NCBI RefSeq assembly: GCF_003990725.2
Contig: NZ_CP030064.1
Coordinates: 1-64,000, forward strand
From: Halorubrum sp. PV6
GTDB lineage: Archaea > Halobacteriota > Halobacteria > Halobacteriales > Haloferacaceae
Direction: 5' to 3'
DNA length: 64,000 nt
Position 1 is the first letter of the stretch. Each line of letters starts with the position of its first letter. This document shows positions 2,848 through 60,125 of the stretch, one piece after another. The position numbers were made by a program, and so were the translations under genes. The notes below the pieces were generated by a model, which was not told the origin of the DNA, did not search any database, and worked only from the letters and a program-made list of their open reading frames with translations.

Positions 2848-4032
2848 TCACCCGGCGACGACCGCAGCCACATCTCCACCGGAAACGACGGCCTCTGTGT
2901 CACGAGCACCCGAGCCGTCGTCGAACCCGTCTTTCGCGTCAACGTGGCGAACGCTCGCGCGCGTCGTCGCTATCGGGCCGGTCGTCGCGACCACATCTCG
3001 TAACTCCGCTTGCCCGGTCGCGATCAGCCGCACGTACCCCAAGTACGGCACTCGAACCCGTGCGACGCCCGTCACCCAGTCGGCCTTGACGGGTGCGGCA
3101 AGCCCGTTCGCCTGATCGTACTGGCCGTTGTTGTCGCCGAGTGTGATGAACCCGTCGTGGGGTGCGGGACAGTGAGTCAGCTCTCCGCAGTCGGCGGCGC
3201 TGTGATACTGGTCGTCTGCGCGGTCATACCAGTTTTCGCCCGCCTCCACTCGAAACATCGCCCGGTGGATGATCGGCGAGGCGGTTCGCCCAGGCGGGCG
3301 GTAGATAACCACCGAGCCGTACGACCCGAACGTGCGGTAATCAACCCTCTCACCGATCGCGTGGGTCACCACGCCGACCTCGTTCTGGGCGGCGTCGGGC
3401 GCGAGTCGGCCCGGTTCCGTCACGAAGACGAGATCGCCCACCTCCATGTTCGGCTCCATGCTTCCGGACTCGACCGCGACCATCGGCGGCCACACACCGC
3501 TCACCCCGAAGAGCAGCAAGCCGATCAACAGGACGATGGCGACGCTGGAGAGCATCTCGCGAATCCACATCAGCGGGCCGTCCATGTCGTTCCGAAACCG
3601 GTACAGCAGTCCGTTATCGGTCGCGGACCCGTCGCCGGTGGGGCTCCCGTGGTTCGCCGGGCTGTCCGCTACCTCCTTGCTGTCTGCTCCCCCTTCACTC
3701 TCCGCTACCTCTTCGCTGTCCGTCACTACCTCTTCGCTGTCCGTCACTACCTCTTCGCTGTCCGTCACTACCTCTTCGCTGTCCGTCACTACCTCTTCGC
3801 TGTCCGTTACCTCCTCGCTGTCTGCTCCCTCTTCACTCTCCGCTACCTCGTCACCGCTACTGCCGTAAGCGGGGCCGGCGGGGGTCGGCTCGTCCTCTGT
3901 AATGTCTTCTTCGGTGACGTCGTCGCCCGGAGCAGCGTCTCGCGTGGGTCCGCCGCTCTCCTCACCGTTTCCCGCCGACCCTGTCTCTCGGTCGGGCTCG
4001 TCGTCCCGCCCCGACCGATCCCCGTTGTCCAT
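2848..4032 (-). CDS. sec11: Signal peptidase I, Sec11/S26B type
   Basis: Membrane serine protease that removes signal peptides from Sec-exported proteins. A hydrophobic segment at about residues 158-183 is followed by the catalytic motif ESGSMEPN (Ser191), HRAMF with His256 in the place that bacterial enzymes use for Lys, and a downstream LGDNNGQYD motif supplying the Asp. This Ser-His-Asp arrangement is the archaeal/ER type. The first 150 residues are an acidic, presumably cytoplasmic, tail with several tandem SEEVVTD units. The gene is convergent with orc1 and divergent from the DNA polymerase D small subunit; a TATA-like cttatgag lies about 27 bases upstream. A second, SipW-like, signal peptidase is at 55155-56249. 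Confidence 0.9.
   Translation of the reverse strand: MDNGDRSGRDDEPDRETGSAGNGEESGGPTRDAAPGDDVTEEDITEDEPTPAGPAYGSSGDEVAESEEGADSEEVTDSEEVVTDSEEVVTDSEEVVTDSEEVVTDSEEVAESEGGADSKEVADSPANHGSPTGDGSATDNGLLYRFRNDMDGPLMWIREMLSSVAIVLLIGLLLFGVSGVWPPMVAVESGSMEPNMEVGDLVFVTEPGRLAPDAAQNEVGVVTHAIGERVDYRTFGSYGSVVIYRPPGRTASPIIHRAMFRVEAGENWYDRADDQYHSAADCGELTHCPAPHDGFITLGDNNGQYDQANGLAAPVKADWVTGVARVRVPYLGYVRLIATGQAELRDVVATTGPIATTRASVRHVDAKDGFDDGSGARDTEAVVSGGDVAAVVAG
3700..3850. repeat. In-frame 21-bp tandem repeats in sec11
   Basis: The 21-bp unit cctcttcgctgtccgtcact (plus one base) is repeated about four times almost perfectly, with degenerate flanking copies. Because 21 is a multiple of three, it adds heptads of the sequence SEEVVTD to the acidic tail of the signal peptidase. 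Copy number probably varies between strains by slippage (inference). Confidence 0.8.
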
Positions 4033-6995: not shown

Positions 6996-7601
6996 TCATT
7001 CCCACGGGTGATTCCCCGGCGTATCGGGCCACAGCGGGTACCAGTAGGACTCGTCGGCTTCGAGGCCGAGCTCGCCGTCTAGAACGGATTGGAGTTTGAA
7101 CTCGACCTGCTGGTTCCGGTCGCTCGTCCCGTCCGGCGCGAAGGGGTAGTACCCTCCCCGGCGGAACGAGTAGATCCAGTAGGCGTCGACGCCGTCGCGT
7201 TCGAACCCGAACACGGCCGCGAGCAGGCGGGAGCCGAACCCCTCTTCGATGAACTGGTCGGCCGCGAAGTGAATGCTCGTCACCAGGTCCTCCGGGTCGT
7301 CGTCTTCCAACACGAACCACTGGTAGCCGTGATTGTCCTCGTATCGGTGGAATCCGGTCCCGGTGTCGATTTCGCCGGCCTCTAAGATCGCTTCGACCGT
7401 CTCGACCGCGTCGTCGAACCGCGTGCTGTCGACGCCGGAGAAACACAGCGCGGCCTCCCCGCAGTGGTCGTAGCCGAGGTCGGCCTCCATCGTCATGTAC
7501 GCGGTCGACATCCCGAACAGATCCTCGGGGTCGGCCTCGCGGGTCGCGTCCGTCTCGGCGCTCGTTCCGAGCACGGCGCGGATCGTGTCGAAGATACCCA
7601 T
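6996..7601 (-). CDS. pspAB: PspA-associated protein PspAB
   Basis: Resembles the PspA-associated protein PspAB family, found in actinobacteria and haloarchaea and linked genetically to phage-shock/envelope-stress responses. Family-like features are an N-terminal MGIFDTIR, a DLFGMSTAYMTME segment, GFTW-like GYQWFVLEDDD at about residue 105, FRRGGYYPFAP at about 160, and the C-terminal YWYPLWPDTPG. The length (201 aa) is typical. No PspA gene is seen nearby, so the assignment rests on the protein alone. The gene is first of a three-gene minus-strand run with the membrane protein and YigZ genes. Confidence 0.72.
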   Translation of the reverse strand: MGIFDTIRAVLGTSAETDATREADPEDLFGMSTAYMTMEADLGYDHCGEAALCFSGVDSTRFDDAVETVEAILEAGEIDTGTGFHRYEDNHGYQWFVLEDDDPEDLVTSIHFAADQFIEEGFGSRLLAAVFGFERDGVDAYWIYSFRRGGYYPFAPDGTSDRNQQVEFKLQSVLDGELGLEADESYWYPLWPDTPGNHPWE

Positions 7602-7671
7602 CTATGGAGCCGACTACGCGACGCGGGGTTTAGGGGTTTGCGTCGGAGCCGGACTCCGTTCGACGCCGGCG

Positions 7672-8595
7672 CTACTCCGCCCGCTCCTCCTTCTCGACGC
7701 GGTCGAGGTACGCCAACACTCCCCGCGCGTTCAGGCTGGCGTCGGCTCTGGCGCGCTCCGGGTTCCAGAACTCCACGTGTCGGCTCGCCTCCTCGAAGTG
7801 TTCCACGACCGCGTCGTCGTCGTCCAGCGCCTCGCGCTTCTCTCGGACGGCTTCGACCCACTCGACGTACGCCCGCTTCGCCTCGCCGATCAGCGACGGG
7901 TCGTACTCGCGCGGCCCGAAGTGACCGAAACAGAGGTACGCCGGATCGAGCGCCTCGATCGCGGACAGGTCCCTGAGACACTGGTCGAGATCGAACTGCG
8001 GCGGCGGCGCGGTCGGTCGGACCGAATCGACTTCCGGGACGTAGATCCCGGCGGCGTCGGCGGTGAACACGACGCCGGCGTCCGGCTCGTGATAAAAGGC
8101 GTGGTGCGGGGCGTGACCGGGCGCCTCGTGAACCACGAGTTCGCGGTCACCCAGATCGATCCGGTCTCCCTCTGTGAGTCCAGAAATGCGGTCTTCGGGG
8201 ACTGCGACGGGTTCGTCGTAGTACTGCCACTGGTCTCCGACAGCGGATTTCGTGCCGGCGACGAGCGTGTCCGGATCGACGAGATGTCGGACCCCCTTTT
8301 CAGGCAGGCGAACCGCGGCGTTCTCGTAACGCTCGGCGAGGTGACCCGCGCCGCCCGCGTGGTCGAGGTGGGCGTGCGTGGGGAGCATCCACGCGACCGC
8401 CTCGCGGTCGATGCCTATCGCCTCGACCGTCTCGAATAGCGACTCGCGGTTCGCGCCCGTGCCAGTGTCGATCACGGCCGGGCGCTCGGTGTCGTACACG
8501 TACACAGCGCCGTACTCGTCGGTGTCGTACATCCCGGTGTCGTGGACGTACAGGTCGTCGACACCCCGGACCGGCTCGAACTCGCCAGCGTGCAT
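7672..8595 (-). CDS. MBL-fold metallo-hydrolase
   Basis: Metallo-beta-lactamase-fold hydrolase of about 307 aa. The zinc motif THAHLDHAGG gives ligands His74, His76, Asp78 and His79; a second histidine lies in APGHAPHHAF and an aspartate in VFTADAAG. A C-terminal helical segment follows (CFGHFGP, then charged helices), as in glyoxalase-II-like or acyl-thioester hydrolases. The substrate is unknown. ATG at 8595 is preferred over an in-frame GTG at 8619 because ttttagca starts about 26 bases upstream, typical for leaderless haloarchaeal genes. It is divergent from the NAD(P)-binding protein gene. Confidence 0.88.
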   Translation of the reverse strand: MHAGEFEPVRGVDDLYVHDTGMYDTDEYGAVYVYDTERPAVIDTGTGANRESLFETVEAIGIDREAVAWMLPTHAHLDHAGGAGHLAERYENAAVRLPEKGVRHLVDPDTLVAGTKSAVGDQWQYYDEPVAVPEDRISGLTEGDRIDLGDRELVVHEAPGHAPHHAFYHEPDAGVVFTADAAGIYVPEVDSVRPTAPPPQFDLDQCLRDLSAIEALDPAYLCFGHFGPREYDPSLIGEAKRAYVEWVEAVREKREALDDDDAVVEHFEEASRHVEFWNPERARADASLNARGVLAYLDRVEKEERAE

Positions 8596-52411: not shown

Positions 52412-52990
52412 CTAGTCCGTCGCTTTCGGCTCCGCCCCGGCGGTCGCGTCCGCTCCGCTCGCCGGGTCGTCGTCCGGGCGCGTGTACCACCACGCCCACA
52501 GCAGCAACACGCCCTGGAGGGGGAGCCGTGCCCACGCCCCGGCGCTGGCGACGCCAGAGAGGCGGTCGGGGACGGCCTCGGCCGCCACGCCGTCGGTCGC
52601 CATGTACACGTTCGCGGGGAACACGGCCCCCAGAAGCGCCATGATCCCCCACGCCGACCCGCGCCGCGTCCGGTCGAACTGCATACCGAGCCCGAAGGCG
52701 ACCTCCGCGATTCCGGACAGGTAGACGAGCGCCCGCGGGCTCGGGAGCCCCGGCGGGACGACCCGCGCGAACGCCTTCGGCGCGAGGAAATGCGTGATCC
52801 CGGCGATCACGTACACCGCGCCCATCGCTCGGCCGGTTCCCCGCTTTCGCTCCGCTACGGTCTCCGCGAGCGATCCTCCGGCGTCGGTTGCGTCGGCGAC
52901 CGCGCCGACGCCGGCGTCGCCGCCGCTTCGATCCGCGCGGTCGTTCGAGACGAGCCCGACACAGGTCGTGACGATTTCGGAGAGTGACAT
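52412..52990 (-). CDS. DoxX-like membrane protein
   Basis: A 192-residue membrane protein with a polar N-terminal region (1-50) and four hydrophobic segments (about 56-72, 86-104, 112-130, 150-168). The DoxX-like pattern is GITHFLAPKAFARVVPPGLPSP and LSGIAEVAFGLGMQF followed by NVYMATDG. DoxX relatives are redox- or thiosulfate-linked in some organisms, but the fold is broad and function here is unknown. The 186 bp upstream are empty apart from an AT-rich cataataaacg near 53057. Confidence 0.78.
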   Translation of the reverse strand: MSLSEIVTTCVGLVSNDRADRSGGDAGVGAVADATDAGGSLAETVAERKRGTGRAMGAVYVIAGITHFLAPKAFARVVPPGLPSPRALVYLSGIAEVAFGLGMQFDRTRRGSAWGIMALLGAVFPANVYMATDGVAAEAVPDRLSGVASAGAWARLPLQGVLLLWAWWYTRPDDDPASGADATAGAEPKATD

Positions 52991-53176: not shown

Positions 53177-54193
53177 TCACTCCTCGTCCGCGGGCGCCCG
53201 CGTCCGGGGGACGAACGTGTACGTCACCCCGTCGTCGAGCACGACGTAGATCCCGCGATCGGGGTCGTGGACGACGCGCCGTCCGGAGTCGATGGCGACG
53301 TCGACGAGGTCGCCGAGGGTCCGGACCGACACCCGATTGCTCCCGAGGCGCCCGACCGATCCGGTCGAGACCCACTCGCCGTACCGGACGCGGCTCGCGG
53401 TGGCGACCGCCTCGGGATCGCTTTCGCGCCGCCCGAGGACGGCGATGCCGAGCCCGCCGACCGTGAGGAGCGTCCCGCCGGCGAGCCGCGATCCGGGAAC
53501 GTCTCTCGCGGCCGGGACGGTGCGCTCGACGGGCGTCGCACGGGTCGTCGACGCCTCGCGCTGGTCGCCGAACCGGTACGTGACGTCGTCGGTCACGAGC
53601 GGCGTCTCGACGGTGAGTCGGTCGACGTACCGGCCGGAGTCGACCTCGGTCTCGGCCACGACGACCGTCTCGACGCGACCGGCCGTCCCGACCTCGCTCG
53701 CGACCGCCGCGAGCCGCGTGTTCCGGTACTCGGTCACGTTCAGCGACGCCTCGGTGGTGTGCGTGCCGTCGGTCACCTCGACGGTCTCGCCCGCGAGAAG
53801 CTGGCGCTCGGTCCAGAACGCCTCGCCGTCCTCGACGGCCCGAGTGACGAGGTAGACGCGCTGGGTGACCGTCACGAGCCGGTCTTCGGGGAAGGTACTC
53901 GTGACCGCGAGGTCGACGGCCGGCGTCGCGGCGGCGAGGTACACCGGCGGCTCTGCGAGTCGCTCACCGGCGGCGAAAAGGGTCGTCTCTCCGGTCACGA
54001 CGGCGCTCGTCGTCAGTTCGAGGTTGAACGTCTCGACCGCGTGCTGTTCGGTGACGGTCGTCGCCGCCGGCGACCCGGCGTAGGCGACCCCGACCGACCC
54101 GAGCAGGACCGCCCCGGCGACGAGGAGCGCGAGGCCGACGAGCGTGCCCCGCGTCGTGAGGAACCACCGCGCGCGCTCCGCCCACGGCCCCAT
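53177..54193 (-). CDS. DUF5305 membrane protein of the putative fibre operon
   Basis: A 338-residue protein with an N-terminal membrane helix (about 17-40), a roughly 200-residue extracellular beta-rich domain, a second helix (about 232-250) and a cytoplasmic tail with a compact domain ending TYTFVPRTRAP. The pattern TVTEQHAVETFNLELTTSAVVTGE and the second-half TRATPVERTVP match the DUF5305 family as I remember it. Its position in the operon with a SipW-like peptidase and two of its likely substrates suggests a role in anchoring or assembling them (inference). It is fourth and last in the run. Confidence 0.78.
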   Translation of the reverse strand: MGPWAERARWFLTTRGTLVGLALLVAGAVLLGSVGVAYAGSPAATTVTEQHAVETFNLELTTSAVVTGETTLFAAGERLAEPPVYLAAATPAVDLAVTSTFPEDRLVTVTQRVYLVTRAVEDGEAFWTERQLLAGETVEVTDGTHTTEASLNVTEYRNTRLAAVASEVGTAGRVETVVVAETEVDSGRYVDRLTVETPLVTDDVTYRFGDQREASTTRATPVERTVPAARDVPGSRLAGGTLLTVGGLGIAVLGRRESDPEAVATASRVRYGEWVSTGSVGRLGSNRVSVRTLGDLVDVAIDSGRRVVHDPDRGIYVVLDDGVTYTFVPRTRAPADEE

Positions 54194-54324
54194 TATCGGC
54201 CCCTCCGCGAACTGGTGAACTGGTGTGCGTACATGTACTGAACCCCGACTCGGACCCGTATAAACCGGGAATCACCTCGTCGTGACTCGTCGCGTAACCC
54301 GGGGGTAACCTCGAACGTCCTCGC

Positions 54325-55158
54325 TCACGACGATTCGGATTCGAACACTTCCTCGTCGCCGCCGGCGACATCTTCCACCTCGATGCGCTCGCTCTCGACC
54401 TCGCCGCTCGCGTCGAACAGGCGGACCGTGATGCGGTAGGGGTCGCCGAACCGCTGCCCGCGTTTGCTGAACGAGAGCTCCCCTTCCAAGGCGGACGACG
54501 ATTTCGTCTCCGTCTCCTCCCGATCGAGATTGTCGAACTCGGCGGTCACCCGCTCGAACGTGTTTTCCGGGTCGTCAACCTCGTATTCGACGACGTACAC
54601 CGCCGGCCCCCCGTTCCCCCGCCTGGACTCGTCTTCGATCTCGACTTCCTCGAACGACGGCCGCGCCGCCGGCGGCGCACAGCCCGCCGCGTCCACGCTC
54701 GCCCGACGCGTCGCGACCGCGGAGAAGCCGTCTGCGGCGGTCGCCTCGACCGTGAACGTCACCGCGGCCGGCGCGTCGTCACAGGAGACCTCGACGGCGA
54801 CGACGAGCGAGTCGCCGGACGCGAGCGTCCCCGCGTCGTTCGAGAGCGTCCCGACCGCCTCCGCCAGCGTCACGGTCACCGCCACGGGCCGACCGGCGCG
54901 ATTCGTGACCGTCACGAGCCGGCTCTCGGCCCCGGCCGCGACGCTGGGAGCGACGTCGAGACCGAGCACGCCCGCGGCGTCGCTCGCGACGGGCAGCGTG
55001 GAGCCGCGATCGAGCGAGGCGGCCGTGTAGGCCCCGGACCCGCGCGCGGCGGCGAGACCGACCAGTCCCGCGCCGGCGGCGAGGAACGCGCGACGCGTGC
55101 CCCGAGGCCCGCCGCTCGCCGCTCGCGGGCGTCGGCGTCGCGGCGGCCGGCGCGTCAC
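54325..55158 (-). CDS. Secreted SipW-type substrate, Tat-like signal
   Basis: A 277-residue exported protein. The basic N-terminus ends in GTRRAFLAAGAGLVGLAA, a twin-arginine signal. The following GAYTAASLDRGSTLPVASDA is very similar to AFTAANVDRSANIDVVADQD of the DUF1102-like protein at 56316-56906, so both may be cut by the SipW-like peptidase between them. The mature region is beta-rich with one Cys pair (VSCDD, AAGCAPP) and an acidic tail. GTG 55158 overlaps the peptidase stop (GTGA); GTG 55167 is an alternative. Function is inferred from context only. Confidence 0.75.
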   Translation of the reverse strand: MTRRPPRRRRPRAASGGPRGTRRAFLAAGAGLVGLAAARGSGAYTAASLDRGSTLPVASDAAGVLGLDVAPSVAAGAESRLVTVTNRAGRPVAVTVTLAEAVGTLSNDAGTLASGDSLVVAVEVSCDDAPAAVTFTVEATAADGFSAVATRRASVDAAGCAPPAARPSFEEVEIEDESRRGNGGPAVYVVEYEVDDPENTFERVTAEFDNLDREETETKSSSALEGELSFSKRGQRFGDPYRITVRLFDASGEVESERIEVEDVAGGDEEVFESESS

Positions 55159-56249
55159 CGCGACCACCGCCGGAGGGCCGGCGCGCGCAGGGTCGCCAGC
55201 GGGCGGAGCGGCACCCGACCGTCGAAGCAGACGCGGTAGCCGACCGCGAACGGGAGGAGGCCGGCGCCGGCCGAGGCGACGGCCGCGAGGAGGGGATGGA
55301 GCCGGTGGAGCGCGAGAAGCGTCCCTTCGGGCAGCGTCGCGGGGTACGGGTACACCCTGAGCGTGGCCGTGATCGCCCCCGGCTGCGGCGGGGTCCGCAT
55401 CGCGAGCGGGAGCGCGTAGGTGCGCTCGGACAGCACCGGGACCGTCGCGTCGACGAACGGAACCGGAACCGCTCGCCGGTCGTTCGCGGCGGTGTACGGC
55501 GCGAGCGCCGACGCGGTGACGGTCCCCTCGGGGAGCCCGTCGACGGCGGCGCCGTCGGTCTCGACGAGGAGCGTCGCCACGGGCGACTGGACGACCGAGA
55601 CGCCCACCTCCCGGACGACATCGGCGTCGGCCGGGAGCGACGTCCCGACCCCGGCCTCGGTGACGACGAACGAGGCGTCGTAGCCGGCCGGAGCGATCGC
55701 CACGAGGGCGACCGTGACGACGAACGTGGTCGCGACGACCGGCCAGACGACCGCTCCCGACCGAAGCACGGACCGACCGACCCGGCGACGACGCGGGCGG
55801 AGCGTCGCCGCGAGCGCGAGGAGCGCGAGCCCCCCGAGGAGGGCGCCGAGGTTCCCGCTGACCGCGCCGGCGACGCGCCCGAAGCCGGGCACGACGACGG
55901 GGCGCCCGCCGACTTCGAGGAGGACGCCCCGGACGGCCGCGTCGGTCACGACGGGCGCCCCGGCCGCCTGGTCGGTCGCGGGGTTCGCGTCGCCGCGGGT
56001 GAGGTACCCGCCGGCCTCGCGGCCGACGACGCGGTGGGTCACGAGCTCGCCCGTGCGGGCGTCCTCGTAGGTGACGACGTCTCCCACGTCGACGTCGCCC
56101 GCGGGGACGAGGACGAACCCGTCGTCGACCCCGAGGGTCGGCTCCATGCTGTCGGAGTACACGTACCCGAAGCCGAGCGGGGTCACAGCGGAGAGGGCGA
56201 GGGCGACCAGCGCGGCGAGGGCGACGACGGTGAGTGCGGTCCGGAGCAT
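55155..56249 (-). CDS. SipW-like signal peptidase with extracellular extension
   Basis: S26 signal peptidase of 364 aa. An N-terminal helix (about 5-22) leads to YSDSMEPTLG with catalytic Ser34, then ELVTHRVVG with His72 and YLTRGDANPATD with Asp87, an archaeal Ser-His-Asp triad. A helix near 133-152 ends the catalytic part. Two more helices and a 150-residue beta-rich region follow, absent from ordinary signal peptidases. Its neighbours are two proteins with the matching AxTAAxxDR motif. SipW in Bacillus processes TasA and TapA; here the analogous role is inferred. Confidence 0.85.
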   Translation of the reverse strand: MLRTALTVVALAALVALALSAVTPLGFGYVYSDSMEPTLGVDDGFVLVPAGDVDVGDVVTYEDARTGELVTHRVVGREAGGYLTRGDANPATDQAAGAPVVTDAAVRGVLLEVGGRPVVVPGFGRVAGAVSGNLGALLGGLALLALAATLRPRRRRVGRSVLRSGAVVWPVVATTFVVTVALVAIAPAGYDASFVVTEAGVGTSLPADADVVREVGVSVVQSPVATLLVETDGAAVDGLPEGTVTASALAPYTAANDRRAVPVPFVDATVPVLSERTYALPLAMRTPPQPGAITATLRVYPYPATLPEGTLLALHRLHPLLAAVASAGAGLLPFAVGYRVCFDGRVPLRPLATLRAPALRRWSR

Positions 56250-56315
56250 GGTGTGAGTGTACTGAAACGGTGGGAATCGAGCGGTTCTGGAGGTGCGGCT
56301 ACGTCAGCGAAGCGG

Positions 56316-56906
56316 TTACACCGCGGCGTTCGCGTTGTCGTCGATGTCGAACGAGAGCGTGCCCGAGAGGTCGCTCCCGCTGGTGAGGACGGCGGCGTCG
56401 CCGTGGCCCGTGTCGACGGTGATGACGACGTAGAACGTCTGGCCGGCAGTGGCGCTGAACGACTGCCCGTCGGTCTCCTCGGAGAGGGTTGCGACGGCGC
56501 TACCCTGGTCGTCGTAGACGACGAACTCCACGTTATTGTCTTCGTTCGCGTCGTCGGTCGTGGCTGCGTACGTCGCGACGATATCGTGGGCCTCGGCGTC
56601 GTTGTTGGTCACGCTGAACGCGTGTGCGTTCTTCGCGTCGGCGCCGTCACCGAGGACGAACTGCGCGTCGGTGTTCGCGCCGCCCGCGGTTCCCTGCTCG
56701 AAGTCGATGGCGAGCTGCTCGTCGGCGTAGTAGACGAGCGGGCCCGAGGTCCCGTCGGTGAGCGCGAGGAGGCCGTCTTGGTCGGCGACCACGTCGATGT
56801 TCGCGGAGCGGTCGACGTTCGCCGCGGTAAACGCACTGGTGCTGATGGACGCGCCCGCCGCGAGGAGCAGCAGGGCGACGATCACGGTGGTGAACAGTCG
56901 GGTCAT
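56316..56906 (-). CDS. DUF1102/TasA-camelysin-like secreted protein
   Basis: First gene of the operon, 196 aa. A signal peptide (residues 1-28) ends in SISTSAFTAANVDRSAN, the SipW-substrate-like motif. The rest is a beta-sandwich-like acidic domain (NAHAFSVTNNDAEAHDIVATY, SFSATAGQTFYVVITVDTG, SGTLSFDIDDNA) resembling DUF1102 and camelysin/TasA-type surface proteins. No membrane anchor remains at the C-terminus, so it is likely released or polymerised. A strong TATA box lies 26-34 bases upstream. Abundant export is plausible. Confidence 0.8.
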   Translation of the reverse strand: MTRLFTTVIVALLLLAAGASISTSAFTAANVDRSANIDVVADQDGLLALTDGTSGPLVYYADEQLAIDFEQGTAGGANTDAQFVLGDGADAKNAHAFSVTNNDAEAHDIVATYAATTDDANEDNNVEFVVYDDQGSAVATLSEETDGQSFSATAGQTFYVVITVDTGHGDAAVLTSGSDLSGTLSFDIDDNANAAV

Positions 56907-56931: not shown

Positions 56932-56940
56932 GGTATATAC
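56932..56940 (-). promoter_or_regulatory. Promoter of the putative fibre operon
   Basis: The ggtatatac block, the most AT-rich stretch in the 91-bp gap, is centred about 30 bases before the ATG at 56906. This is the best-matching TATA position in the region and fits a leaderless start of the operon. Confidence 0.65.
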
Positions 56941-56997: not shown

Positions 56998-58998
56998 TCA
57001 GGTCGGCGCCGGGAGCAACAGGTCCACGCGCGTCCCCTCGCCGGGGGCCGAGGTGAGCCAGATCGCCCCGTCGTGGTACTCGACGATGCGCTGACACAGC
57101 GCCAGCCCCACGCCGGTGCCGTCGACGTCCGTCCGCCCCAGCCGCTCGAACACGTCGAACGCGCGCTCGACGGCCGACTCGTCCATCCCCGCGCCGTCGT
57201 CCTCGACGTACACGTGGCGCCACTCGCGCGACCCGTCGAGGCCGTCGGCGACCGACTCGGGAAGCGCGGCCGGGTCGACGGCGTCTCTCGCCCCCACGTG
57301 GACGCTCGGGCTCGCCGAGTCGTTGTACTTCACGCCGTTGTCGATCAGGTTCTGGAACAGCTGGACGAGCAGGCGCGGGTCGCCCCGCACCGTCGGCAGC
57401 GAGTCGGCGGTCACCGTCGCGTCCGCGTCTTCCACGCGAACGGTGAGGTTGAGCCGGGCCTTGTCGACCACGTCCGCGAGCGGGGTCGGTTCCAGGGCGC
57501 CGCCGCGGCTGTCGACGCGGGAGTACTGGAGCAGCGCGTCGATCATCGACTGCATCCGCTCGGTCGCGTCGACGGCGCTCTCGACGAGGTCGAACGCGCG
57601 CTCGTCGAGCGTCGACCCGACCCCGTAGAGCTCTTCCAGCAGGGTGAGGTAGTTCCCGACCGTCCGGAGCGGCTGCTTCAGGTCGTGTGAGGCCGCGTAT
57701 GCGAACTGCTCTAAGTCCCTGTTCGAGCGGCGCAGCCGGCGTCGCGTCTCCCGGAGCTCGGCCTCGCGCTCGGCGCGCTCGGTCACGTCGCGGTACACCC
57801 AGAGGTTCGCCTCGCCGTCCGGCAGCTCGTAGGGCACGTAGTCGCGTTCGAGCCGCCGCCCGTCGGCCAGCGTCAGCGGCTCGTCGGTCACCGGCTCGCG
57901 CGTCGCGATGCGCTCGTTCACTCGGTCGACGAACTCCTCCGGCGCCTCGAACACGTGCTTCAGGTCGTGTGCAGCCGCGGCGCAGTCCGCGCCCACGAGC
58001 GACGCCGCGTCGACCGGCACGTCGAGCAGGTCGCACAGCCGCTGGTTCACCGCGAGGATGTCCCGGTTCGGGTCCTCGACCAAGACGCCCGCCGGGAGCG
58101 TGTCGAGGACCGTCCTGAGGACGGTGTTCGTCCGTTCGAGCGTCTCCTCGCGCTCGACGCGCTCGGTCGTGTCCGCCGCGACGACCAGCGCCTGCCGGCC
58201 GGTCTCGCCCGGAACCGAAAGCGGGACCACGTCGGTCGTCACCGTCCGAGCGCCGCCGTCGGCGTCGACCAGCTCCTCGTCCGCTATCCTGACCGGGTCG
58301 CCGGTCTCGATGACCCGCTGCTCGGCGTCGCTGACGCCTCGGTCCCCCTCGCGGCCGAGACGAGGCGGACCGGTCGCCCCCTCGAGCTCCTCGACGCGGA
58401 CGCCGCGCGCGGCCGCGGCCGCCTCGTTCGCCAGCCTGTATCGCCCGTCGGCGTCCGCGACGACCACCTCCTGCGGGATCGTGTCGACGACCGTCCGGAG
58501 CGTCTCTCGGGCGCGTCGCGCCTCCTGTTCCGCCCGCCGGCCGGCGCAGGCGTCCGCCAGTCGCTCGTGTAGCGGGGCGAGCGCGGCGAGCGTCCCCTCA
58601 GAGAAGGGCGCCCCGTTCTTCACGACGACGAGCGCGCCGAAGTCCGGCAGGTCGAACAGGTAGTAGTGGGAGCCGTCGTGGGTCCCCACGATCGGCAGCG
58701 TCTCGTCGTGCCAGGCGGACTCGGGCTCCGCGCCCTCGGCGACGTGACCGGTCGCCGCCTCGAACGCCTCGTTGAACGTCGGCTGTCGCGGGATGCCGGC
58801 GACGAGGTCGTACGTTGCACCCCCGTCCGGCGCCTCGCGGCGTTCGAACACCCCGCCGGTCGAGCAGTTCAGCCGCCTGAGATACGACGAGAGCGCCGTC
58901 CGAGCCACCGCCGCGACCGTCTCCCCCCGACCGATGGAGAGCGCGATCTCGTAGAACACCTGGATCTGCTCCGGCGGGGTCGCCGTCGTCTCCCTCAC
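56998..58998 (-). CDS. PAS-domain sensor histidine kinase
   Basis: A cytoplasmic 666-residue kinase; no membrane helix is evident. An N-terminal GAF-like sensor (about 10-150) is followed by two PAS domains (about 168-285 and 290-410, each ending in VAADTTERVEREETLER or YRDVTERAEREAE). The H-box SHDLKQPLRTVGNYL has His438, then the ATPase domain with NLIDNGVKYND and EDDGAGMDE. It belongs to the haloarchaeal histidine kinases that act on receivers without fixed pairing. The GTG start overlaps the FIST gene by four bases (GTGA). Confidence 0.92.
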   Translation of the reverse strand: MRETTATPPEQIQVFYEIALSIGRGETVAAVARTALSSYLRRLNCSTGGVFERREAPDGGATYDLVAGIPRQPTFNEAFEAATGHVAEGAEPESAWHDETLPIVGTHDGSHYYLFDLPDFGALVVVKNGAPFSEGTLAALAPLHERLADACAGRRAEQEARRARETLRTVVDTIPQEVVVADADGRYRLANEAAAAARGVRVEELEGATGPPRLGREGDRGVSDAEQRVIETGDPVRIADEELVDADGGARTVTTDVVPLSVPGETGRQALVVAADTTERVEREETLERTNTVLRTVLDTLPAGVLVEDPNRDILAVNQRLCDLLDVPVDAASLVGADCAAAAHDLKHVFEAPEEFVDRVNERIATREPVTDEPLTLADGRRLERDYVPYELPDGEANLWVYRDVTERAEREAELRETRRRLRRSNRDLEQFAYAASHDLKQPLRTVGNYLTLLEELYGVGSTLDERAFDLVESAVDATERMQSMIDALLQYSRVDSRGGALEPTPLADVVDKARLNLTVRVEDADATVTADSLPTVRGDPRLLVQLFQNLIDNGVKYNDSASPSVHVGARDAVDPAALPESVADGLDGSREWRHVYVEDDGAGMDESAVERAFDVFERLGRTDVDGTGVGLALCQRIVEYHDGAIWLTSAPGEGTRVDLLLPAPT

Positions 58999-60125
58999 AG
59001 CCCCTCCACCACGCCGACGACCGCCGTCTTGTTGTACAGTTCGAGGAACTCGCGCCCGGAGTTGGCGATCTCGCCGACGGTGAGCGCGCCGACGAGCGGC
59101 CCCGCGTCGCCCTCGCCCACCGCGGCGAGCTCCCGGTCGAACTCGTCGCCGAGGTAGAGCACGCGCGAGATGCAGTCGAAAAACAGCGTCTCGCCGCCCG
59201 CGGTCGACGCCGACTCGCGGGCGGCCGCCGCGGCCTCGCGGGCGGCCGCCGCGGCCTCGCGGGCGGCCGCGACGAGCGAGTCCGGCTCGCCTTTCAGGAC
59301 GTGGACGAACGACCCGGCGGGGACCTCGCCGAAACAGCGGATCCCGCCGTCGGCCGTCGGTTCGAACGGGTCGCGGACGATCTTCTCGGCCTCGAACCGG
59401 CTCAGCCCGAGCGGGTACGACTTCGCCACCTCGAAGAAGTTGTCGGCGGTCAGCTCCCGGCCGATGTCCGGCTCGATGAGGTCGCGGTACACCTCGAACG
59501 CCGGCTTGTCACCGAGGAGGCGCACCACGGGGCCGTCGGCGTCCGTGACGCGGAACGGCCCGGCGAACTCCCGCCAGCCGTGACTCACGCCGACGCTTCC
59601 AGCCGCGCGGGTGGCCGCGACGACGGCGGCGTCCTCGACCCAGCCGTCCTCGGTCAGGAGACACGGCGCCTGCTCCATCGAGAGCGACCCCGCCCCGCCC
59701 CCGAGGACGGTGACCTCCACGCCGTAGGCGTCGAACAGCGCCCCGACGAGCGCCTCCGTCCGGGTGGCGAACGCGTCCGCGAGGACGAACGCCGTCCGAT
59801 ACCCCTCGACGAGCAGGTCGGGAAGCTGCGCGTCGAAGTCCGCGTCGGGATCGCTCAGCCCCTCGACGGGGGTGACGGCGGGCGCCTCGCGGAGGCCGAG
59901 AAGCAGCGTCCCCGTCTCGCGGGCGGTCCCGTCGGCGATCACCTGCGGGAACGCCCCTCCGAACGCCGTGAGCGACGAGCCGGCGAGTCTGTCGGCGAGG
60001 TCCGTCGCGTGAGGGCCCGCGGCGTCGGTCGCGAGGACGAGGAGGCCGGACACGTCGGGGTCGGCTTCGAGCGCGTCGAGCGCGGGGCCGACGGGGGAAT
60101 CGGGGGGAACGTACGTCTGCTCCAT
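58995..60125 (-). CDS. FIST-domain sensory protein
   Basis: A 376-residue protein with FIST N (about 5-205; GLLVLATDAAG, VLADAFATRTEALVGALFDAYGVEVTVLGGGAG in outline) and FIST C (about 210-370; YRDLIEPDIGRELTADNF, CISRVLYLGDEFDREL, GALTVGEIANSG). FIST domains are ligand-binding sensors, often linked to signal transduction, and bind small molecules such as amino acids. A three-unit AAAREAAAA insert lies in the C-terminal part. It is first of a two-gene operon with the histidine kinase; a TATA-like ctaatatatct is 26-37 bases upstream. Confidence 0.88.
   Translation of the reverse strand: MEQTYVPPDSPVGPALDALEADPDVSGLLVLATDAAGPHATDLADRLAGSSLTAFGGAFPQVIADGTARETGTLLLGLREAPAVTPVEGLSDPDADFDAQLPDLLVEGYRTAFVLADAFATRTEALVGALFDAYGVEVTVLGGGAGSLSMEQAPCLLTEDGWVEDAAVVAATRAAGSVGVSHGWREFAGPFRVTDADGPVVRLLGDKPAFEVYRDLIEPDIGRELTADNFFEVAKSYPLGLSRFEAEKIVRDPFEPTADGGIRCFGEVPAGSFVHVLKGEPDSLVAAAREAAAAAREAAAAARESASTAGGETLFFDCISRVLYLGDEFDRELAAVGEGDAGPLVGALTVGEIANSGREFLELYNKTAVVGVVEGL
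59215..59277. repeat. 21-bp tandem repeat inside the FIST gene
   Basis: tcgcgggcggccgccgcggcc (21 bp) occurs two times perfectly in tandem (59215, 59236), followed by a third partial copy. It encodes EAAAAAR in the loop between the FIST C parts and is in frame. Confidence 0.75.

Follow-up and report, generated by a model that had tools for sequence, protein, structure and literature searches.

A SipW-type signal peptidase cassette of Halorubrum sp. PV6 that probably encodes a compact TasA/Taf-like pilus

The first 64,000 nucleotides of contig NZ_CP030064.1 of Halorubrum sp. PV6 (positions 1-64000 of the contig called C1 here, in a genome of 3.04 Mb on two contigs; this whole stretch is referred to as the window) have the high GC content and the acidic proteins of haloarchaeal DNA. 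At 56906-53177 the window carries a four-gene cassette on the minus strand which, read from the sequence, has the order P1, SipW-type signal peptidase, P3 and DUF5305 membrane protein (Table 1). An earlier note on this DNA had suggested that these genes may build an archaeal TasA-like fibre from two secreted proteins. The four open reading frames (ORFs) it described were recovered from the sequence, and its naming of the peptidase and of the DUF5305 protein holds at the family cut-offs, the former passing TIGR02228, the model for archaeal signal peptidase I, with 54 bits (cut-off 51.85) and the latter PF17231 (120.5 bits against 29, E 9e-35).

Table 1 Features of the cassette and of related SipW loci (window positions unless a locus is named)
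Feature	Position	Strand	Basis
P1, probable major pilin, 196 aa	56316..56906	-	ORF, profile homology, model
SipW-type (S26B) signal peptidase, 364 aa	55155..56249	-	TIGR02228, alignment, hydropathy
P3, second SipW-type substrate (putative), 277 aa, GTG start	54325..55158	-	ORF, profiles, model
DUF5305 membrane protein, 338 aa	53177..54193	-	PF17231, alignment, hydropathy
Overlap GTGA, 4 nt, P3 start codon/sipW stop codon	55155..55158	-	sequence
TATATA box, ~30 nt 5' of P1 ATG	56934..56939	-	sequence
Small winged-helix-like protein	L011:11026-11622, L012:2437-3018, L013:4396-4956, L165:905-1447		

P1 has a Sec-type signal with hydrophobic residues 4-22 and would be expected to be cut at about A25/F26, presumably by SipW, leaving a free N-terminal segment of about residues 26-42 (a candidate donor strand) ahead of a beta-sandwich spanning residues 46-190. 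No Pfam family matches P1 at its cut-off, TasA/camelysin and DUF1102 included, and none matches P3 either. When the P1 profile was compared with the sequences of the PDB one relevant chain was found, 9p0a_C "Pilin" (E 2.5e-4, profile residues 1-168), which the fold service lists under the title "Structure of Natrinema sp. J7-2 Tafi pilus". Alignment of the P1 profile with a profile of 15 Tafi-like pilins using hhalign covered 172 columns (99.3%, E 2e-20) at a profile identity of 20%, and the homology is full-length. Going by these profiles P1 is a full-length homologue of a pilin that has been solved as a filament, which lends support to the proposed TasA-like fibre. The 9p0a_C sequence begins with a Tat-like (twin-arginine translocation) signal followed by GTGAFSSVEADR and has 215 residues including the signal, of which only residues 28-215 (188 residues) were modelled, so that the first ordered residue is the Phe of the GTGA-F motif, at the same motif position. 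The P1 motif is conserved at the point where the modelled residues of 9P0A begin, the mature end of P1 itself being predicted.

An AlphaFold 2 (AF2) model of P1 reached a mean predicted local distance difference test (pLDDT) score of 83.5, with a core above 90. As anticipated by the earlier note, archaeal donor-strand filaments ranked above unrelated rows in the comparison of this model with known folds: the bundling pili of Pyrobaculum calidifontis (7UEG; VIA Z 9.2, root mean square deviation (rmsd) 4.7, 143 residues aligned), the Sulfolobus acidocaldarius thread (7PNB, PMC9715654; Z 9.0, rmsd 5.2, 146 aligned) and the Tafi pilin 9P0A (Z 8.4, rmsd 3.5, 145 aligned). Cannula-type tubes followed with VIA Z of 8.3 and 8.1 and the best unrelated row stood at 7.1, below all of the archaeal filament matches. 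Foldseek alone ranked 7PNB first and left 9P0A and 7UEG outside its top 50, and these two surfaced only in the VIA second look; 7UEG and 7PNB, the best fold matches, gave no detectable match to P1 in the PDB sequence search. TasA itself is not among the fold matches listed for P1, which excludes nothing. The Z values are moderate, and we take sequence homology to carry the argument that P1 is related to pilins.

The two secreted proteins had been described as sharing an N-terminal motif, and this was confirmed. The strict form A[FY]TAAxxDR is found in exactly two of the 234 mechanically defined ORFs of at least 100 residues in the window, P1 and P3, both times at the N-terminus, and shuffling the N-termini 200 times produced none. 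A third copy in the extension of SipW (LAPYTAANDRR) was considered as a self-substrate and rejected, as it is kept by no homologue, and we take it as coincidence. Conservation continues past the expected cleavage site in the pattern A-F-T...R(+8)-x-A/V-x-V-x-V-x-x-D(+17), counted from the motif Ala. Taken as a description and not as an independent test, Arg is present at +8 in 64/64 and Asp at +17 in 63/64 proteins (24 P1, 25 P3 and 15 Tafi pilins), and positions +10, +12 and +14 are mostly hydrophobic or small in the same set. The P1 model has no strand assigned between residues 18 and 46, with residues 16-26 below pLDDT 50. In TasA, residues 28-38 directly behind the cleavage site form the donor strand, to which the TapA N-terminus is similar (PMC9674648). 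By analogy, the conserved segment that follows the cleavage site is likely to be a donor strand.

In order to look at how far the cassette is conserved, P1 and P3 were each searched against 195 genomes of the order to obtain syntenic pairs, with regions labelled by profiles built for this analysis, and 80 loci were obtained when named genomes were searched with the SipW alignment, the gene order being scored in the 24 closest to the SipW of the window. The order P1-SipW-P3-DUF5305 on one strand was present in 22 of these 24. The exceptions are Haloquadratum walsbyi J07HQW1, which has the first three genes, and a locus with another order (L109). Hosts of the cassette include Haloferax mucosum (P1 75% and SipW 57% identical), Halobellus, Halonotius, Halospeciosus, Halomarina, Halolamina, Halorientalis, Haloarcula, Halarchaeum and others. 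The spread is patchy, full-length P1 being found in 13/195 genomes of the order and in 3/52 of the genus, and the other two P1-bearing members of the genus carry all four genes (L189, L190). The distance matrices of the four proteins are also correlated with one another (Mantel r 0.60-0.87), with none of 2000 permutations as high. Gene order and correlated distances together place the cassette far beyond chance.

The closest known system is the Tafi pilus. In Natrinema gari JCM 14663, which we take to represent strain J7-2, a locus (L176) encodes essentially the same pilin as 9P0A (E 3e-114), followed by a CARDB membrane protein, SipW and DUF5305, so that the last two are neighbours of a pilin closely related to one solved as a filament. 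It shares with the window a homologous pilin, the cleavage motif, Arg+8 and Asp+17 and both SipW and DUF5305, whereas it differs in the CARDB protein and in that no P3-like gene was found in the stretch examined; pilins of Tafi loci mostly carry a Tat signal, unlike the Sec-type P1. Among the curated Taf families (TafA NF052520, TafC NF052521, TafE NF052522), the N-terminal domain of P3 matches the N-terminal part of TafC and some P1 homologues match TafE, but the C-terminal part of TafC is unmatched by P3. A search on Taf/Tafi found no paper in the literature library consulted. The tapA-sipW-tasA operon of Bacillus subtilis, source of its biofilm fibre, likewise has two substrates with SipW between them, an aromatic residue after the cut, a minor-subunit gene that overlaps sipW and similar N-terminal strands in both substrates (PMC9674648, PMC10151520). 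It differs in that the order of major and minor subunits appears reversed and no DUF5305 is found in the B. subtilis control genome, and none of the cassette proteins reaches the cut-off of the Pfam and NCBIfam SipW and TasA families. TapA donates its N-terminus to TasA (PMC9674648) and has a complete V-set immunoglobulin (Ig) fold with a free N-terminus, its gene overlapping sipW (PMC10151520).

Taken together we consider it quite probable that the cassette is a compact operon for the biogenesis of a pilus of the haloarchaeal TasA/Taf-like donor-strand type. The basis of this reading is computed gene order, homology, predicted fold, the conserved segment and co-occurrence, and from it we infer cleavage by SipW, strand exchange and the roles of P3 as starter and of DUF5305. 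After export, P1 and P3 would be kept in place through their hydrophobic signal segments until the dedicated SipW cuts beside the aromatic residue of A[FY]T, which would free the mature N-terminal strand. P3 would then donate the initial strand, in the way that TapA serves TasA, and a thin filament would grow as P1 subunits join by donor-strand exchange. The C-terminal domain of P3, which is exchangeable, would form a tip or anchor at one fibre end, and DUF5305 would act as membrane partner of SipW in the assembly process.

The part given to P3 in this scheme has the strongest competitor. P3 has a signal with the twin-Arg TRRAFL, then the motif AYTAASLDR; few of its homologues have a Tat motif, most having an Arg-rich N-terminus and a plain hydrophobic segment, so that Tat export had to be rejected as a defining trait. 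Profile comparison shows P3 to be homologous to P1 (97.3%, E 2e-11). The model of P3 (pLDDT 77.6) has an Ig-like domain at residues 64-158 (pLDDT about 97), which resembles the chaperone domains of PapD, FimC and Caf1M (Z about 10, rmsd 2-3 Å), and a second beta-domain at 165-263. P3 matches TafC weakly and in its N-terminal third only (33.1 bits against a cut-off of 410), and 17 of the 25 P3 proteins match TafC, below that cut-off. The C-terminal part of P3 is variable among homologues: it can be missing, Ig-like, a Laminin_G_3 domain (E 2e-18, Haloferax mucosum) or a lamin tail domain (E 1e-14, Halorientalis). Beside a sipW gene on the second contig of the genome we also observed a TafC-like protein with a SipW-type signal and a P3-like N-domain (L013:4953-6125, plus strand), the C-terminal region of which is bactofilin-like (PF04519, E 1e-17), unexpected in an exported protein.

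The exchange or loss of the C-terminal domain, and the bactofilin-like region in the TafC-like protein, would suit a P3 that serves only as tip adhesin or as membrane or S-layer anchor while P1 nucleates itself. We hold this to be a serious, if less probable, alternative. Fourteen of 25 homologues consist of the N-domain alone (161-184 residues), which means that something other than adhesion keeps P3, and the N-terminal strand of P3 copies that of P1 as TapA copies TasA (PMC9674648). Because a complete Ig domain is combined with an N-terminal strand nearly the same as that of P1, P3 is proposed as the first donor, and by analogy it is most likely a starter plus tip or anchor.

For the DUF5305 protein, hydropathy and alignment give an N-terminal transmembrane (TM) segment (residues 18-36), an extracellular part and a conserved C-terminal tail. 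A second TM segment is suggested at about 239-255, although hydropathy there lies below the threshold of 1.6 used, and the tail is predicted to be cytoplasmic. The strictest conservation of the protein lies in this tail (Trp274, Asp302, Arg306, Asp310 and Tyr316). Across 59 nearly complete genomes DUF5305 was present in 36 and the SipW type, scored at 105 bits or more, in 35. The co-occurrence check proposed in the earlier note is clearly positive for these two: both were found in 35 genomes, SipW without DUF5305 in none and DUF5305 without SipW in one. For 46 of the 50 DUF5305 genes a SipW gene is found within 10 kb (0.6 expected), in 37 of these cases on the same strand, and DUF5305 was absent from all 14 control genomes, B. 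subtilis and Sulfolobus acidocaldarius among them. In one genome (G049, L188:4966-5988, plus strand) a single ORF of 340 residues joins an S26-type signal peptidase to a DUF5305 tail; the tail covers profile positions 166-217 with 28.6 bits, just below the Pfam cut-off of 29, and 30 bits in the genome search. A likely second fusion is found in another genome (G180, C1:1074021-1075016), covering residues 7-336 of the G049 ORF at 44% identity. The pairing with SipW and the fusion of peptidase and tail point to DUF5305 as a probable direct partner of the SipW peptidase in pilus biogenesis. More tentatively, the two may form a membrane complex that is the missing assembly platform of haloarchaeal donor-strand pili and couples cleavage to strand hand-over, an alternative to chaperone-usher systems in which P3 would be a starter with an exchangeable adhesive head.

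Upstream of the DUF5305 gene (54263-54193) there is a TTTATA box, a GGAGG and a 13-codon ORF (ATG at 54234) with a TAA that overlaps the ATG of DUF5305; the gene may be driven by a promoter of its own and preceded by a small leader ORF. Separate expression of this kind, together with the strict conservation of the predicted cytoplasmic tail, would fit a sensor or regulator that reads, for example, the status of the envelope or of subunits through its tail and is no part of the assembly. The tight pairing with SipW and the peptidase-tail fusion speak at least equally for a direct partner, and we regard a regulatory role as the less likely one. A search found no paper on the DUF5305 Pfam family in the literature library consulted.

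Several points weigh against the pilus reading as a whole. The fold matches of P1 are of single chains with high rmsd (3.5-5.2 Å) and moderate Z. The proteins in which the conserved Arg and Asp were counted were partly selected by similarity in that very region. The curated cut-offs of TafA, TafC and TafE are missed, TafE scoring 18.4 bits for P3 and 13.1 for P1 out of 155 needed. Ig folds are very common, so the likeness of P3 to PapD is weak evidence for a starter role, and DUF5305 could be regulatory. P1 and P3 might be non-polymerising secreted or surface proteins that merely use a SipW-type signal and form no fibre, in keeping with the same motif in many haloarchaeal proteins and with several such loci in this genome. 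We consider this improbable, since P1 is homologous along its full length to a pilin solved as a filament, archaeal filament folds rank at the top and conservation extends past the cleavage site. The cassette probably encodes a compact variant, with a patchy distribution, of the TasA/Taf-like pilus of haloarchaea and not a TafC/TafE equivalog.

The Ser, His and Asp residues of signal peptidases of the endoplasmic reticulum and archaeal type are catalytic, and the corresponding Ser34, His72 and Asp87 are invariant in an alignment of 13 sequences of the peptidase. A catalytic domain is followed by more TM segments, an extracellular beta-rich domain (about 190-315) and a C-terminal TM segment. 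This extracellular extension had been called unusual, but it is present in all four SipW-type proteins of the genome and in the whole alignment. The cut-off of the Bacillus SipW equivalog NF046067 is not reached (25.8 of 190 bits). The genome does hold other TIGR02228-type peptidases, but cleavage by such general signal peptidases (for example 2848-4032 or C1:140327), with another role for the SipW-like protein, is very improbable given that SipW stands between both putative substrates in every complete locus, that its three catalytic residues are kept, that bacterial LepB copes poorly with an aromatic residue at P2' and that SipW processes TasA in Bacillus (PMC10269814).

Three further SipW loci were found in the genome, L011 (C1:478000-491000), L012 (C1:1121000-1136000) and L013 (C2:178000-192000), two of them with DUF5305; other proteins that bear the cleavage motif are encoded near these loci. 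L011 includes a membrane protein that is rhomboid-like by eye (7298-8197). Near several SipW loci lies a small winged-helix-like protein with C-terminal TM segments (an RRRxxxH start and IPWxxYYxGL), a possible regulator of these pili. Within the cassette itself, the overlap of sipW and P3 would allow translational coupling, with an upstream GTG at 55167 as a possible alternative start of P3, and the TATATA box would fit a leaderless haloarchaeal promoter of the operon. The intergenic gaps are 66 nt between P1 and sipW and 131 nt between P3 and DUF5305. Directly upstream on the same strand (56998-60125) are overlapping genes for a PAS histidine kinase and a FIST-domain protein, a possible signal input to the operon. 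No close match to the kinase was found in 38 other genomes of the genus, and hence no clean empty site can be read. Downstream (52412-52990) is a DoxX-like membrane protein that is common in the genus (28/39 genomes).

The strict pairing of DUF5305 with the SipW type names a concrete candidate for a pilus assembly partner. DUF5305 thereby gains a first role hypothesis, which is the most useful new lead of this analysis. The four-gene cassette is small enough for genetic dissection in a haloarchaeon, and Haloferax mucosum, which carries a related cassette, is a congener of the model Haloferax volcanii.

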